From contig SVRD01000013.1 in assembly GCA_015064955.1 (NCBI GenBank), positions 1-48,856 on the forward strand: a stretch of 48,856 nucleotides of DNA, read 5' to 3'. The position numbers were made by a program, and so were the translations under genes. This stretch comes from Oscillospiraceae bacterium. GTDB lineage: Bacteria > Bacillota > Clostridia > Oscillospirales > CAG-382. Numbering within the stretch: the stretch's first letter is position 1; each line of letters starts with the position of its first letter. Under the pieces are notes generated by a model, which did not search any database, was not told where the DNA came from, and saw nothing but the letters and a program-made list of their open reading frames with translations. Positions 1-30,715 of this stretch are shown in pieces.

Positions 1-733
1 GTTTTGCGTATGAATTCGGACTCTTACTTTGTTTAGTGAAATCGTTCGCTTGCGCTCACGGTGAAATAATTTACTCCGTAAATTGTGAAATTTGATGCTA
101 TCGCATCAAGTGAAATTAAATCCACCCACTCGCCGTCGAGGCGAATTTCACACGCCGCAGGCGTATTTCACATTGCGAAGCAATATTTCACCCACCCATA
201 AGGGTGGATTTAGTTGAAAAACCGACAAGTCGAAACTTGTCGGTTTTGTGTATGAATTCGAACTCTTACTTTGTTTAGTGAAATCGTTCGCTTGCGCTCA
301 CGGTGAAATAATTTACTCCGTAAATTGTGAAATTTGATGCTATCGCATCAAGTGAAATTAAATCCACCCACTCGCTGCTCACAGCGAATTTCACACGCCG
401 CAGGCGTATTTCACATTGCGAAGCAATATTTCACCCACCCATAAGGGTGGATTTAGTTGAAAAACCGACAAGTCGAAACTTGTCGGTTTTGCGTATGAAT
501 TCGGACTCTTACTTTGTTTAGTGAAATCGTTCGCTTGCGCTCACGGTGAAATAATTTACTCCGTAAATTGTGAAATTTGATGCTATCGCATCAAGTGAAA
601 TTAAATCCACCCACTCGCCGTCGAGGCGAATTTCACACGCCGCAGGCGTATTTCACATTGCGAAGCAATATTTCACCCACCCATAAGGGTGGATTTAGTT
701 GAAAAACCGACAAGTCGAAACTTGTCGGTTTTT
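1..733. repeat. Three-copy tandem repeat (242-243 bp) of mini-palindromes
   Basis: Three head-to-tail copies start at 1, 243 and 486. Each is a chain of short perfect palindromes separated by the heptamer GTGAAAT in the left half and its complement ATTTCAC in the right half. In copy 1 the palindromes include AATTTAC/GTAAATT, TTGATGC/GCATCAA, TCGCC/GGCGA, ACGCC/GGCGT, ATTGC/GCAAT and CCACCC/GGGTGG, and an outer pair TAAATCCACCC/GGGTGGATTTA encloses the right half. Every copy ends in a long AAACCGACAAG/CTTGTCGG hairpin. Copies 1 and 3 are almost identical; copy 2 has a different but still self-complementary central hairpin (372-387). I see no gene here; short open frames are by-products of the repeat. 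The left edge may be cut by the window. Confidence 0.9.
702..733 (-). terminator. Rho-independent terminator of tRNA-Val
   Basis: A 13-bp perfect stem, AAAAACCGACAAG with CTTGTCGGTTTTT, has a six-base loop. Read on the minus strand it follows the tRNA directly and ends in a T-run. The same hairpin closes each of the three tandem repeat copies upstream, so the tRNA terminator and the repeat share this sequence. Confidence 0.75.
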
Positions 734-734
734 C

Positions 735-810
735 TGGTGGGGACTACAGGGCTCGAACCTGTGACCCTCTGCTTGTAAGGCAGATGCTCTCCCAGCTGAG
801 CTAAACCCCC
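735..810 (-). tRNA. tRNA-Val(TAC)
   Basis: Minus-strand cloverleaf beginning GGGGGTTTAGCTC, with anticodon stem and loop CTGCC-TTACAAG-CAGAG giving anticodon TAC, T-arm GGTTCGAGCC and an encoded 3' CCA (735-737). The acceptor stem pairs GGGGGTT with AGTCCCC including G-T wobbles. A consensus promoter lies just upstream. Confidence 0.95.
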
Positions 811-16407: not shown

Positions 16408-16429
16408 TAAAATAAGTAAGGCGGTGAGC

Positions 16430-16655
16430 GTGATACTCCAAAGCGGAGTATCACGCAACTCTATTCGCCTGACGGCGAGTTATATTGCTTCGCAGTGATA
16501 TTCGGCTTACACCGAGTGATATTTGCTTCGCAAGTTTATGGGCGAATAGAATATCACTGAAGCCGAATGGCTTCAATATCACTTTTTTGAAAATATCTCG
16601 CCATCGGCGAGGAATTTCCAAAAAAATATCACGCTGACGATAGTCAGCATATCAC
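16430..16655. repeat. Mini-palindrome array 2 (GTGATAT hinge)
   Basis: A chain of short palindromes separated by GTGATA(T) or its complement ATATCAC. It begins with a perfect 10-bp hairpin GTGATACTCC/GGAGTATCAC (16430-16439 with 16445-16454), then TCGCC/GGCGA, CGG/CCG, TTGC/GCAA, GAAGCC/GGCTTC, CTCGCC/GGCGAG and GCTGAC/GTCAGC. CTATTCGCC pairs at distance with GGCGAATAG. The architecture matches array 1. Beyond it, 16725-16790 has two more hairpins (TTGGGC/GCCCAA and GCATTTGT/ACAAATGC). From there to the promoter at 16958 I see no gene. Confidence 0.8.
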
Positions 16656-16670
16656 TTAACAGACAAAAAG

Positions 16671-16709
16671 AAAGAGAAGACTCGTTAATATACGAATCTT
16701 CTCTTTTCT
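16671..16709. terminator. Terminator-like hairpin
   Basis: AAAGAGAAGACTCGT pairs with ACGAATCTTCTCTTT with one mismatch; T-runs occur on both strands, so it could act in either direction. It closes array 2. Confidence 0.6.
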
Positions 16710-29806: not shown

Positions 29807-29883
29807 GGTTCGGTAGTTCAGTTGGTTAGAATGCCGCCCTGTCACGGCGGAGGTCGTGGGTTCGAGTCCCATCCGAATCGCCA
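29807..29883 (+). tRNA. tRNA-Asp(GTC), copy 1
   Basis: Starts GGTTCGGTAGTTCAG; anticodon arm CCGCC-CTGTCAC-GGCGG gives GTC; T-arm GGGTTCGAGTCCC; CCA encoded at 29881-29883. Identical to the copy at 30300. Confidence 0.96.
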
Positions 29884-29922
29884 ATTCTTCCTCCTCTGTT
29901 ACAGAGCTTAAAGCGCAGATGT

Positions 29923-29998
29923 GCGGATTTAGCTCATTTGGTAGAGCGCCACCTTGCCAAGGTGGAGGTAGCGGGTTCGAACCCCGTAATCCGCTCCA
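29923..29998 (+). tRNA. tRNA-Gly(GCC), copy 1
   Basis: GCGGATTTAGCTCATTTGG start, anticodon arm CACCT-TGCCAA-GGTGG with anticodon GCC, acceptor GCGGATT/AATCCGC, CCA encoded. Identical to the copy at 30219. Confidence 0.96.
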
Positions 29999-30030
29999 AC
30001 CAAAACTTACCGCTTTCAATGCGGTGATAC

Positions 30031-30104
30031 GGCGCCATAGCCAAGCGGTAAGGCAGAGGTCTGCAACACCTTTACCCCCAGTTCGATTCTGGGTGGCGCC
30101 TCCA
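30031..30104 (+). tRNA. tRNA-Cys(GCA)
   Basis: GGCGCCATAGCCAAGCGG start, anticodon loop CTGCAAC giving GCA, T-arm CCAGTTCGATTCTGG, acceptor GGCGCCA/TGGCGCC, CCA encoded. Confidence 0.96.
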
Positions 30105-30142
30105 AACAAAAACAACTTAATATATATATCCTTTTTTGAGAT

Positions 30143-30218
30143 GCTGATGTGGCACAGGTGGTAGCGCACATCCTTGGTAAGGATGAGGTCATGAGTTCGA
30201 GTCTCATCATCAGCTCCA
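30143..30218 (+). tRNA. tRNA-Thr(GGT)
   Basis: GCTGATGTGGCACAGG start, anticodon stem CATCC/GGATG with loop TTGGTAA giving GGT, acceptor GCTGATG/CATCAGC, CCA encoded. It abuts the next tRNA without a spacer. Confidence 0.93.
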
Positions 30219-30294
30219 GCGGATTTAGCTCATTTGGTAGAGCGCCACCTTGCCAAGGTGGAGGTAGCGGGTTCGAACCCCGTAATCCGCTCCA
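30219..30294 (+). tRNA. tRNA-Gly(GCC), copy 2
   Basis: Identical to 29923-29998; begins at the base directly after the CCA of tRNA-Thr. Confidence 0.96.
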
Positions 30295-30299
30295 AAAAC

Positions 30300-30376
30300 G
30301 GTTCGGTAGTTCAGTTGGTTAGAATGCCGCCCTGTCACGGCGGAGGTCGTGGGTTCGAGTCCCATCCGAATCGCCA
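30300..30376 (+). tRNA. tRNA-Asp(GTC), copy 2
   Basis: Identical to 29807-29883. Confidence 0.96.
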
Positions 30377-30406
30377 AGCTTTCCTGCAACAGCGGGGAAG
30401 CGAAAC

Positions 30407-30482
30407 GCCTCTGTAGCTCAGTTGGTAGAGCAGGAGACTGAAAATCTCCGTGTCATTGGTTCAATTCCGATCGGAGGCACCA
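30407..30482 (+). tRNA. tRNA-Phe(GAA)
   Basis: GCCTCTGTAGCTCAG start, anticodon stem GGAGA/TCTCC with loop CTGAAAA giving GAA, acceptor GCCTCTG/CGGAGGC, CCA encoded. Last tRNA of the operon. Confidence 0.96.
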
Positions 30483-30520
30483 AAACAAAACGCACTTCGC
30501 AAGAAGTGCGTTTTGTTTTG
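30481..30520 (+). terminator. Terminator of the tRNA operon
   Basis: A perfect 18-bp stem, 30481-30498 with 30503-30520 (core AACGCACTTC/GAAGTGCGTT), GCAA loop and T-rich 3' arm; it starts inside the tRNA-Phe CCA. Confidence 0.85.
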
Positions 30521-30521
30521 G

Positions 30522-30715
30522 AACGATGTTTGCCCTTTCGGGCAAGAGATGTGACTTCGTCAGTGATGCTCACTGCGTCAGTGATGTTTCGCCTTGCGGC
30601 GAAGCCATAAAACATCACATCACTTTGCAAAGAATTTGCAAAGCATCACTGTGCGTAAGCACTACATCAATATGGCGAAGCCATAACATCATTTCGGCGC
30701 AGCCGATACACTACC
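30522..30715. repeat. Mini-palindrome array 3 (GTGATG/CATCAC hinge)
   Basis: Palindromes TTGCCC/GGGCAA, TTCGCC/GGCGAA, TTTGCAAA, GTGC/GCAC, TATGGC/GCCATA and TCGGC/GCCGA are separated by GTGATG, AACATCAC or ACATCA. The build is the same as arrays 1 and 2 with a third hinge variant. It fills most of the 315 bp between tRNA-Phe and the next gene; there is no gene in it. Confidence 0.75.

Follow-up and report, generated by a model that had tools for sequence, protein, structure and literature searches.

Inverted repeats beside a structural RNA gene characterise 23S intervening sequences, while RAYT systems pair dispersed palindromic repeats with a solitary cognate gene and occur in several specificities. 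PF05635 is a large protein family whose biochemical role is, to our knowledge, not settled. A member of it, the 23S rRNA IVP, is named in a figure legend of a 2023 study among the associations of CRISPR adaptation modules (PMC10910872), and a passage of another report likens PF05635 to Avd, the accessory protein of diversity-generating retroelements (DGR; PMC10053308). The short tandemly repeated repetitive (STRR) heptamers of cyanobacteria appear in an excerpt of PMC5088731 as a tool for fingerprinting. Gut-1 (RF01706) was first reported by Weinberg in 2010 as a noncoding RNA candidate, in the passage concerned from environmental/human gut sequence only (PMC2864571). No paper linking Gut-1 with an IVP was found in the open-access literature.

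Here we analyse a 48,856-nucleotide stretch of DNA (the window) from an Oscillospiraceae bacterium whose own genome assembly measures 1.76 Mb and is 82% complete. The window opens with a repeat array that overlaps the Gut-1 model, and related arrays elsewhere stand directly ahead of IVP genes.

Results

Three tandem copies adjoin a tRNA-Val gene

Positions 1–733 hold three copies of about 242 bp in tandem (starts 1, 243 and 486, spacing 242 and 243, end at about 732); copies 1 and 3 are identical over 247 nt and copy 2 is different (Table 1). On the plus strand, the left half of a copy runs through three GTGAAAT-palindrome units to a fourth GTGAAAT, the arm TAAATCCACCC and a central hairpin, and the right half through two ATTTCAC-palindrome units to a third ATTTCAC, the hairpin CCACCC-ATAA-GGGTGG, the word ATTTA and a long palindrome. 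This closing palindrome is of the terminator type in every copy. The arms X and X' form a long-range pair, likewise in copies 2 and 3, and in the 75 of 114 seed loci (see below) where they were compared they co-vary (TAAATCCACCC or GAAATAAATCC), with a mean match of 10.9 against 8.3 for mixed pairs. The array adjoins tRNA-Val.

The initial annotation had described this stretch as a modular chain of perfect mini-palindromes joined by a constant GTGAAAT/ATTTCAC hinge. The chain and its constant joint are real: hinge positions map in all three copies, and a search of the own genome for GTGAAAT-N8..30-GTGAAAT finds 69 matches, of which 15 fall within the window, whereas the reversed pattern yields one. 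The word "perfect" was slightly too strong, as by eye it fits all palindromes but the first of each copy (CGTTCGC..); the loops, also read by eye, are 3–5 nt long. The array had further been distinguished from CRISPR, and rightly so, since the inter-hinge segments, unlike spacers, are self-complementary: 140 of the 197 unique ones have a stem of at least 4 bp, 129 spanning the whole segment.

Two further elements built in the same way lie in the window, one with the hinge GTGATAT/ATATCAC and a degenerate one, with the hinge GTGATG/CATCAC, directly behind tRNA-Phe, the last of seven clustered tRNA genes.

Table 1. Coordinates of array features, Gut-1 matches and adjoining tRNA genes in the window.
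Feature	Position	Strand	Details
Array copy 1	1–247	.	GTGAAAT at 36, 61, 85, 110; ATTTCAC at 145, 165, 185
X' arm	114–127	.	Long-range pairing with X arm, 202–215, of the first hairpin
Gut-1 match, right half of copy 1	140–216	-	89.6 bits
Closing palindrome, copy 1	218–247		
Array copy 2	243–489	.	GTGAAAT at 278, 303, 327, 352; ATTTCAC at 388, 408, 428
Gut-1 match, right half of copy 2	383–459	-	90.2 bits
Closing palindrome, copy 2	461–490		
Array copy 3	486–734	.	GTGAAAT at 521, 546, 570, 595; ATTTCAC at 630, 650, 670
Gut-1 match, right half of copy 3	625–701	-	89.6 bits
Closing palindrome, copy 3	701–734		Read as tRNA-Val terminator and lead hairpin of the element
tRNA-Val(tac)	735–810	-	Host site; element starts right behind its CCA end
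Second element, hinge GTGATAT/ATATCAC	16428–16708	+	Limits by eye; without a tRNA upstream
Second element, lead hairpin	16428–16456		
Second element, array	16456 to ~16655		
Gut-1 match, second element	16456–16527		49.8 bits
Second element, terminator-like hairpin	~16667–16708		
Cluster of seven tRNA genes	29807–30482		Third element behind the last
tRNA-Phe	30407–30482		Third element directly behind it
Third element, degenerate, hinge GTGATG/CATCAC	30481–30715	+	Limits by eye
Third element, palindrome	30481–30520		Followed by array
Gut-1 match, third element	30521–30592		23.8 bits, under the cut-off

Half of each copy corresponds to Gut-1

The right halves of the window array match Gut-1 on the minus strand above its gathering score of 50 bits; the left half, scored on the plus strand, reaches 47.8 bits, just under the cut-off. 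The view that the element is unlike known ones must be qualified to this extent, as Rfam already covered one half of every copy; the remaining parts fall outside that model. Across the own genome there are 53 Gut-1 matches at E≤10, 23 of them over the cut-off, and several joint families coexist (GTGAAAT, GTGATAT, GTTATGA, GCTAAAT, ATGAAAT(C) and GTGATG), in which the second half carries the reverse complement of its own joint. Gut-1 is matched at E≤1e-5 in 19 of 24 genomes of the genus, the own genome included. One 27-mer scan of named genomes, which samples the GTGAAAT family only, returned at least 114 stretches, hereafter the seed loci, in metagenome-assembled genomes labelled mostly Oscillospiraceae, Clostridia or its families and relatives; the hinge thus recurs outside the window.

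One-sided chains occur in loci L078, L085, L104, L142 and L144, where GTGAAAT stands alone and the ATTTCAC half is absent. In the own genome the GTGATAT-like family has a common lead hairpin, GCGAGACTTC..GAAGTCTCG, at C2, C16 and C20, and the ATGAAAT(C) family another, CGTGTTATCC..GGAGAACACG, at C4, C20 and C26; both are without a T run and at non-tRNA sites.

The hairpins follow an oriented loop rule

C-GNA-G sequences form unusually stable DNA mini-hairpins, and RNA UNCG loops demand a C as the next base. GCGAAGC is used as such a DNA mini-hairpin in published works. When the GTGAAAT-joined hairpins are read on the joint strand, C-G is the closing pair in 122 of 140, and their triloops are C-TNC-G in 43 of 74 cases and C-GNA-G in none of the 74. 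For 15 other, partly overlapping, joint words the corresponding counts are 84/99 for C-G closure, 44/74 for C-TNC-G and 1/74 for C-GNA-G. On the opposite strand these loops read C-GNA-G or, in many tetraloops, C-GNNA-G, which would suggest DNA that is extruded or single-stranded. The base outward of C-TNC-G (n=43) is C in 21, G in 11, A in 10 and T in one.

This rule contradicts the earlier idea that hairpins are free cargo held by the hinge. The conserved information is rather the heptamer, which is family-specific and tracks a protein gene located beside it.

An IVP gene lies behind some of the arrays

Behind the array, several seed loci contain an open frame starting MAESKLRELS, which profile searches place in the S23 or IVP family of four-helix bundles (PF05635/TIGR02436). 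The protein at L089 scores 91.4 against PF05635 (cut-off 33.8) and 101 against TIGR02436 (cut-off 24), and the sole solved chain found by sequence for IVP is 2RLD. Profile searches of IVP gave no nuclease, recombinase or transposase domain. All three IVP genes over the cut-off in the own genome lie just downstream of an array (joints GCTAAAT, GTGAAAT and GTTATGA); an IVP with a GTGATAT or ATGAAAT array was not found in that 82%-complete assembly. The initial annotation had separated the array from REP/BIME elements and had proposed looking for a Y1/RAYT partner. PF01797 (Y1/HUH) has no match in the 82%-complete own genome and is found in 5 of 14 control genomes, which agrees with the separation; the partner gene that was found is that of IVP.

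The 400 nt upstream of IVP genes hold at least five direct plus inverted copies of one 7-mer in 40 of 94 windows, against 2 of 940 dinucleotide shuffles and 7 of 96 downstream windows (94 and 96 of 100 windows counted, owing to length). After nine short loci were set aside from 140, 79 of 131 IVP loci had at least one of two arrangements, hairpin arrays in 55 and inverted heptamers on the flanks in 25 (both at one locus), and 52 had neither; other windows of the same loci passed the array criterion in 2 of 131. A motif search placed an intact IVP directly behind the array in 7 of the 114 seed loci; most copies are therefore without the gene.

At L093 the array looks intact and the IVP frame behind it is interrupted by stop codons, and at L224, L227, L228 and L305 (N-termini MHYELNGEF.. 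and MQNAECRMQNEE..) the heptamer repeats extend into the start of the chosen IVP frame. A promoter between array and IVP was considered and set aside, a -10-like box before the IVP start being a weak signal only (24/49 against 31% in shuffles). Elsewhere in the own genome, L360 (115–2238; C6) encodes a reverse transcriptase (RT; RVT_1) whose nearest models, group II/maturase and DRT, lie below their cut-offs; a 193-aa frame before it was rejected as an Avd-like candidate, its last 133 aa being without a match in two profile libraries.

Heptamer and protein vary together

Mapped on an IVP tree, the joint types comprise 14 states and require 15 changes, where the minimum in 200 shuffles was 33. 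Three protein columns vary with individual bases of the heptamer, and the tree was built with these columns dropped, which was verified. We used 49 of the 52 IVPs with a hinge score of at least 4, leaving out L199 and L201 (not yet framed) and L229 (spurious); we assigned the hinge frames ourselves, by similarity for hinges without TG, and base 7 is uncertain in L289, L296, L306 and L308. Residue 4 is S in 29 of 29 IVPs whose heptamer begins with G and N or D in 20 of 20 where base 1 is A, with seven changes of each on the tree, and among joints for which TG fixes the frame, 40 of 40 conform. Column 75 (A/S) predicts base 2 (T/C) in 49 of 49, with two origins, and column 89 (Q/E) predicts base 5 (A/T) in 48 of 49, L220 being the exception. 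For residue 4, all five phylogenetically independent pairs on well-supported branches agree (p 0.0625).

Because there were only five independent base 1 pairs, we took another 40 IVP loci and fixed the rule in writing ahead of reading them. Sixteen of the 40 had a readable array; the other 24 had no array at a score of at least 5 and were unscored, and the word at L388 (score 4) was unreadable. With framing and tallies by us, base 1 was correct in 15 of the 15 resolved, and bases 2 and 5 were each as predicted in 15 of 15, including a C at base 2 from S, although many of these proteins are close relatives of the first set and the test was therefore easier than it looks. On the phage scaffold MT835590 base 1 also fits, by eye. 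This covariation suggests that IVP is a putative sequence-specific heptamer binder, with residues that vary with the heptamer. The three residues might lie at one end of the bundle, if we assume an antiparallel topology, and could then form a single reading surface.

Many copies lie behind CCA ends, and those at tRNAs turn over

Of the 101 seed loci with enough room (13 of the 114 were set aside), 52 have a same-strand tRNA whose end lies no more than 200 nt ahead of the seed; 16 isotypes are represented, and the five bases behind the tRNA are GAAAA in 45 of these 52. A GAAAA..TTTTC palindrome was read in 82 of the 114 seed loci, the rest being without the lead motif, a readable palindrome or room, and CCA directly precedes it in 70 of the 82. 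Upstream of the element in L113 and L172 lies tmRNA; other loci are behind apparent duplicated tRNA 3' ends or sites merely ending in CCA. Identical palindrome cores are found beside different tRNAs, which suggests that the palindrome moves together with its element. A 23S rRNA intervening sequence was considered as an identity for the array and rejected on these positions, the window copy adjoining tRNA-Val and a tRNA standing just upstream in so many seed loci.

Among 28 arrays examined in the own genome, a subset of its Gut-1 matches, 10 lie behind a tRNA and 18 are without an ARAGORN tRNA upstream. Copies with GTGATAT and ATGAAAT(C) joints are mostly away from tRNAs and have lead hairpins common to several sites. 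In tandems, the second copy lies within the tail of the one before it. Many GTGAAAT elements have at their far end a word like GAGTTCGAATTCATACGC, resembling a tRNA T-arm (L250 near 2100–2200, L088, L091, L101 and L126), which may serve as the landing site for the next copy in tandems such as C11b, C32b and that of the window.

We compared the same tRNA genes among congeners by BLAST, followed by reading of about 420 nt by eye. Behind tRNA-Ser, the own genome has a GTGAAAT array and G008 an ATGAAG array; G013 has a tRNA-end duplication and then an ATGAAGC array with IVP, and G005 and G014 have an IVP behind short repeats. Within the ~420 nt read, G003, G007 and G012 showed no array; G006, G011 and G017 have tRNA-end duplications without a heptamer array, and in G016 the contig ends. 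Behind tRNA-Glu, where the own genome has GTGAAAT with IVP, there is ATGAAAT in G003, ATGAAGT in G004, bare heptamers in G005, tRNA-end duplications in G011 and G013, and nothing in G006, G007, G008 and G012. With one genome per species and congener flanks mostly 65–85% identical, it is hot-spot turnover alone that these comparisons show for hairpin arrays.

The duplications downstream of tRNA-Ser (L340, L343, L347, L348 and L349) repeat the final ~20 nt of that gene, accompanied by an inverted segment resembling a T-arm and by an intervening hairpin; in G006 (L349) they are in tandem.

A sister architecture brackets the gene with heptamers

Inverted heptamers with at least two copies on each side of IVP occur in 31 of 144 loci, against 4 of 720 shuffles, and with at least three copies on each side in 16 of 144, against 0 of 720; only 2 of 49 hairpin-array IVPs also have this arrangement. 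Five of seven plasmid IVPs pass the flank criterion (three from Nostoc, one from Dolichospermum and one from Bernardetia), and those of Treponema (L401) and Monoglobus (L407) have related repeats, by eye only.

Two pairs of sites, which come from the heptamer-flanked Nostoc architecture and not from hairpin arrays, compare one position with and without an IVP element. In Nostoc C052 a 422-nt segment in pC052_A faces 188 other nt in pC052_D of the same strain, between collinear flanks (right 99.9%, left 91%). In Nostoc ATCC 53789, a cytosine methyltransferase gene is the site, with 466 nt in pNsp_c in place of 328 nt. The target sequence at each left junction includes AATT or AATTCG, part of the heptamer, and by eye the replacement of 188 and 328 nt shows no target duplication of the kind made by DDE-type insertion sequences. 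These pairs imply that the elements are mobile or are exchanged, at the cost of target sequence. A comparison of L404 with L414 was too divergent for reading.

Discussion

The initial interpretation is partly supported. In our judgement the window array is probably a non-autonomous copy of a group of very small mobile elements in which IVP reads a cognate heptamer. A full element would consist, in order, of a lead palindrome, an inverted heptamer array with hairpin spacers, and a gene for an IVP of about 115 aa (PF05635/TIGR02436). Each IVP would recognise its own heptamer, GTGAAAT in the window, through residue 4, the A/S of H-E-[A/S] and the Q/E of K-L-[Q/E]-I. The inversion of the heptamers may let an IVP oligomer gather both half-arrays, with the hairpins setting the spacing of the sites. 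Copies of the GTGAAAT type would be placed immediately 3' of a CCA, most often that of a tRNA, and would bring their own terminator, the lead palindrome presumably doubling as such behind tRNAs. Joining would be left to host or other enzymes. The CCA junction is compatible with targeting of DNA as well as with priming by the 3' end of the tRNA.

An unlikely alternative keeps the protein and moves the action to RNA, with an IVP oligomer seated on the single-stranded GUGAAAU joints of a tRNA read-through transcript and the hairpins looped out. TRAP and the CsrA sponges offer the analogy; heptamers between hairpins would suit a ring protein on RNA, a tRNA promoter lies upstream, and Gut-1 scores as a structured RNA. 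The loop rule, however, fits DNA GNA triloops and not RNA UNCG, the outward base being C in only 21 of 43, and the inverted tandem heptamers of Nostoc, which have no hairpins, resemble transposon ends. We regard DNA as the probable substrate.

Gut-1 might also be a free-standing structured noncoding RNA, with the IVP gene a mere neighbour or its mRNA a partner, which we consider quite improbable. The Rfam match and the listing as a noncoding RNA in the passage of 2010 (PMC2864571) favour it, and an array ahead of the IVP gene could be that gene's leader. Yet the second half has the same oriented modules on the other strand (both strands entered the loop counts), 15 of 38 C-TNNC-G tetraloops are not GNRA on the opposite strand, and the IVP residues track the heptamer.

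Retro-insertion, in which element cDNA would be primed from the tRNA CCA-OH with IVP as an Avd-like helper and an RT acting in trans, we judge very improbable. It would explain the junction directly behind CCA in tRNA, tmRNA and other CCA-ending sites, and it could draw on the resemblance of PF05635 to Avd noted in a passage of PMC10053308 and on the one RT in the own genome. RVT_1, however, is present in no more than 6 of the 24 genomes from the genus, the own one included; G003, G006 and G015, which are 97–99% complete and hold 20, 9 and 3 Gut-1 matches, are without it, and its absence from near-complete congeners that bear arrays argues against tRNA-end priming. Conversely, G019 and G023 have an RT but no Gut-1 match, and copies of the GTGATAT type lie mostly away from tRNAs.

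A terminator or insulator owned by the host, kept behind tRNA genes by selection and grown in tandem by slippage, is highly improbable: the lead palindrome does resemble a tRNA terminator and copies are in tandem, but the same tRNA gene is empty or occupied by another family in congeners, and the lead palindrome recurs beside different isotypes. A REP/BIME element moved by a RAYT (Y1) transposase, which dispersed palindromes with a solitary cognate gene might recall, is scarcely credible given that PF01797 has no match in the 82%-complete own genome and that the cognate gene is that of IVP.

Returning to the reading of the array as a mobile-element copy whose heptamer is read by IVP, we tentatively entertain a broader version, somewhat less likely than not, in which IVPs are specificity factors of a bacteria-wide class of minimal mobile elements that encode no enzyme. 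One branch would space its heptamers with DNA mini-hairpins, its GTGAAAT family landing on tRNA CCA ends, and the other would bracket the gene with tandem heptamers (Nostoc, Dolichospermum, Bernardetia and many Clostridia), a residue-to-base code linking protein and heptamer. Such a class could explain Gut-1, the 23S intervening sequences that carry IVP and at least part of the cyanobacterial heptamer repeats; in its boldest form, the copies would be cDNA whose synthesis starts from the CCA-OH of a tRNA.

Gut-1 entered the literature in 2010 and is still an orphan among RNA candidates, and our data offer both it and PF05635 a testable role, that of a small protein reading a seven-base joint with three named residues. 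If binding is confirmed, this would be a new type of mobile element whose sole gene encodes a binding protein. It would also explain the joint recurrence of tRNA 3' ends with heptamer repeats in gut Clostridia, and that of heptamers in cyanobacteria. Four-helix proteins specific for a heptamer could become simple programmable binders of DNA or RNA.

Compared with known systems, the elements share with DGR a related four-helix bundle, that of Avd as described in a passage of PMC10053308, but the loci that were read show neither a template/variable repeat nor an RT. With REP/BIME-RAYT they have in common dispersed palindromic repeats, a solitary cognate protein gene and several specificities side by side; they differ in that no Y1 transposase was found here and in that the recognition unit is the heptamer between the hairpins. 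The STRR of cyanobacteria, compared here by description, are likewise tandem heptamers in Nostoc, here inverted around IVP genes. The 23S rRNA intervening sequences with IVP/S23 (PF05635, TIGR02436) have the same protein family and an adjoining structural RNA gene, whereas the present elements lie at tRNA/tmRNA 3' ends or in intergenic DNA, not inside 23S rRNA, and have heptamer arrays of clade-specific sequence. The closest relation is to Gut-1, of which the minus strand of each right half in Table 1 is a full-length member above the gathering score; that model, however, describes one half of the element and misses the inverted second half and the lead palindrome, and the CCA junction and partner gene lie outside it.
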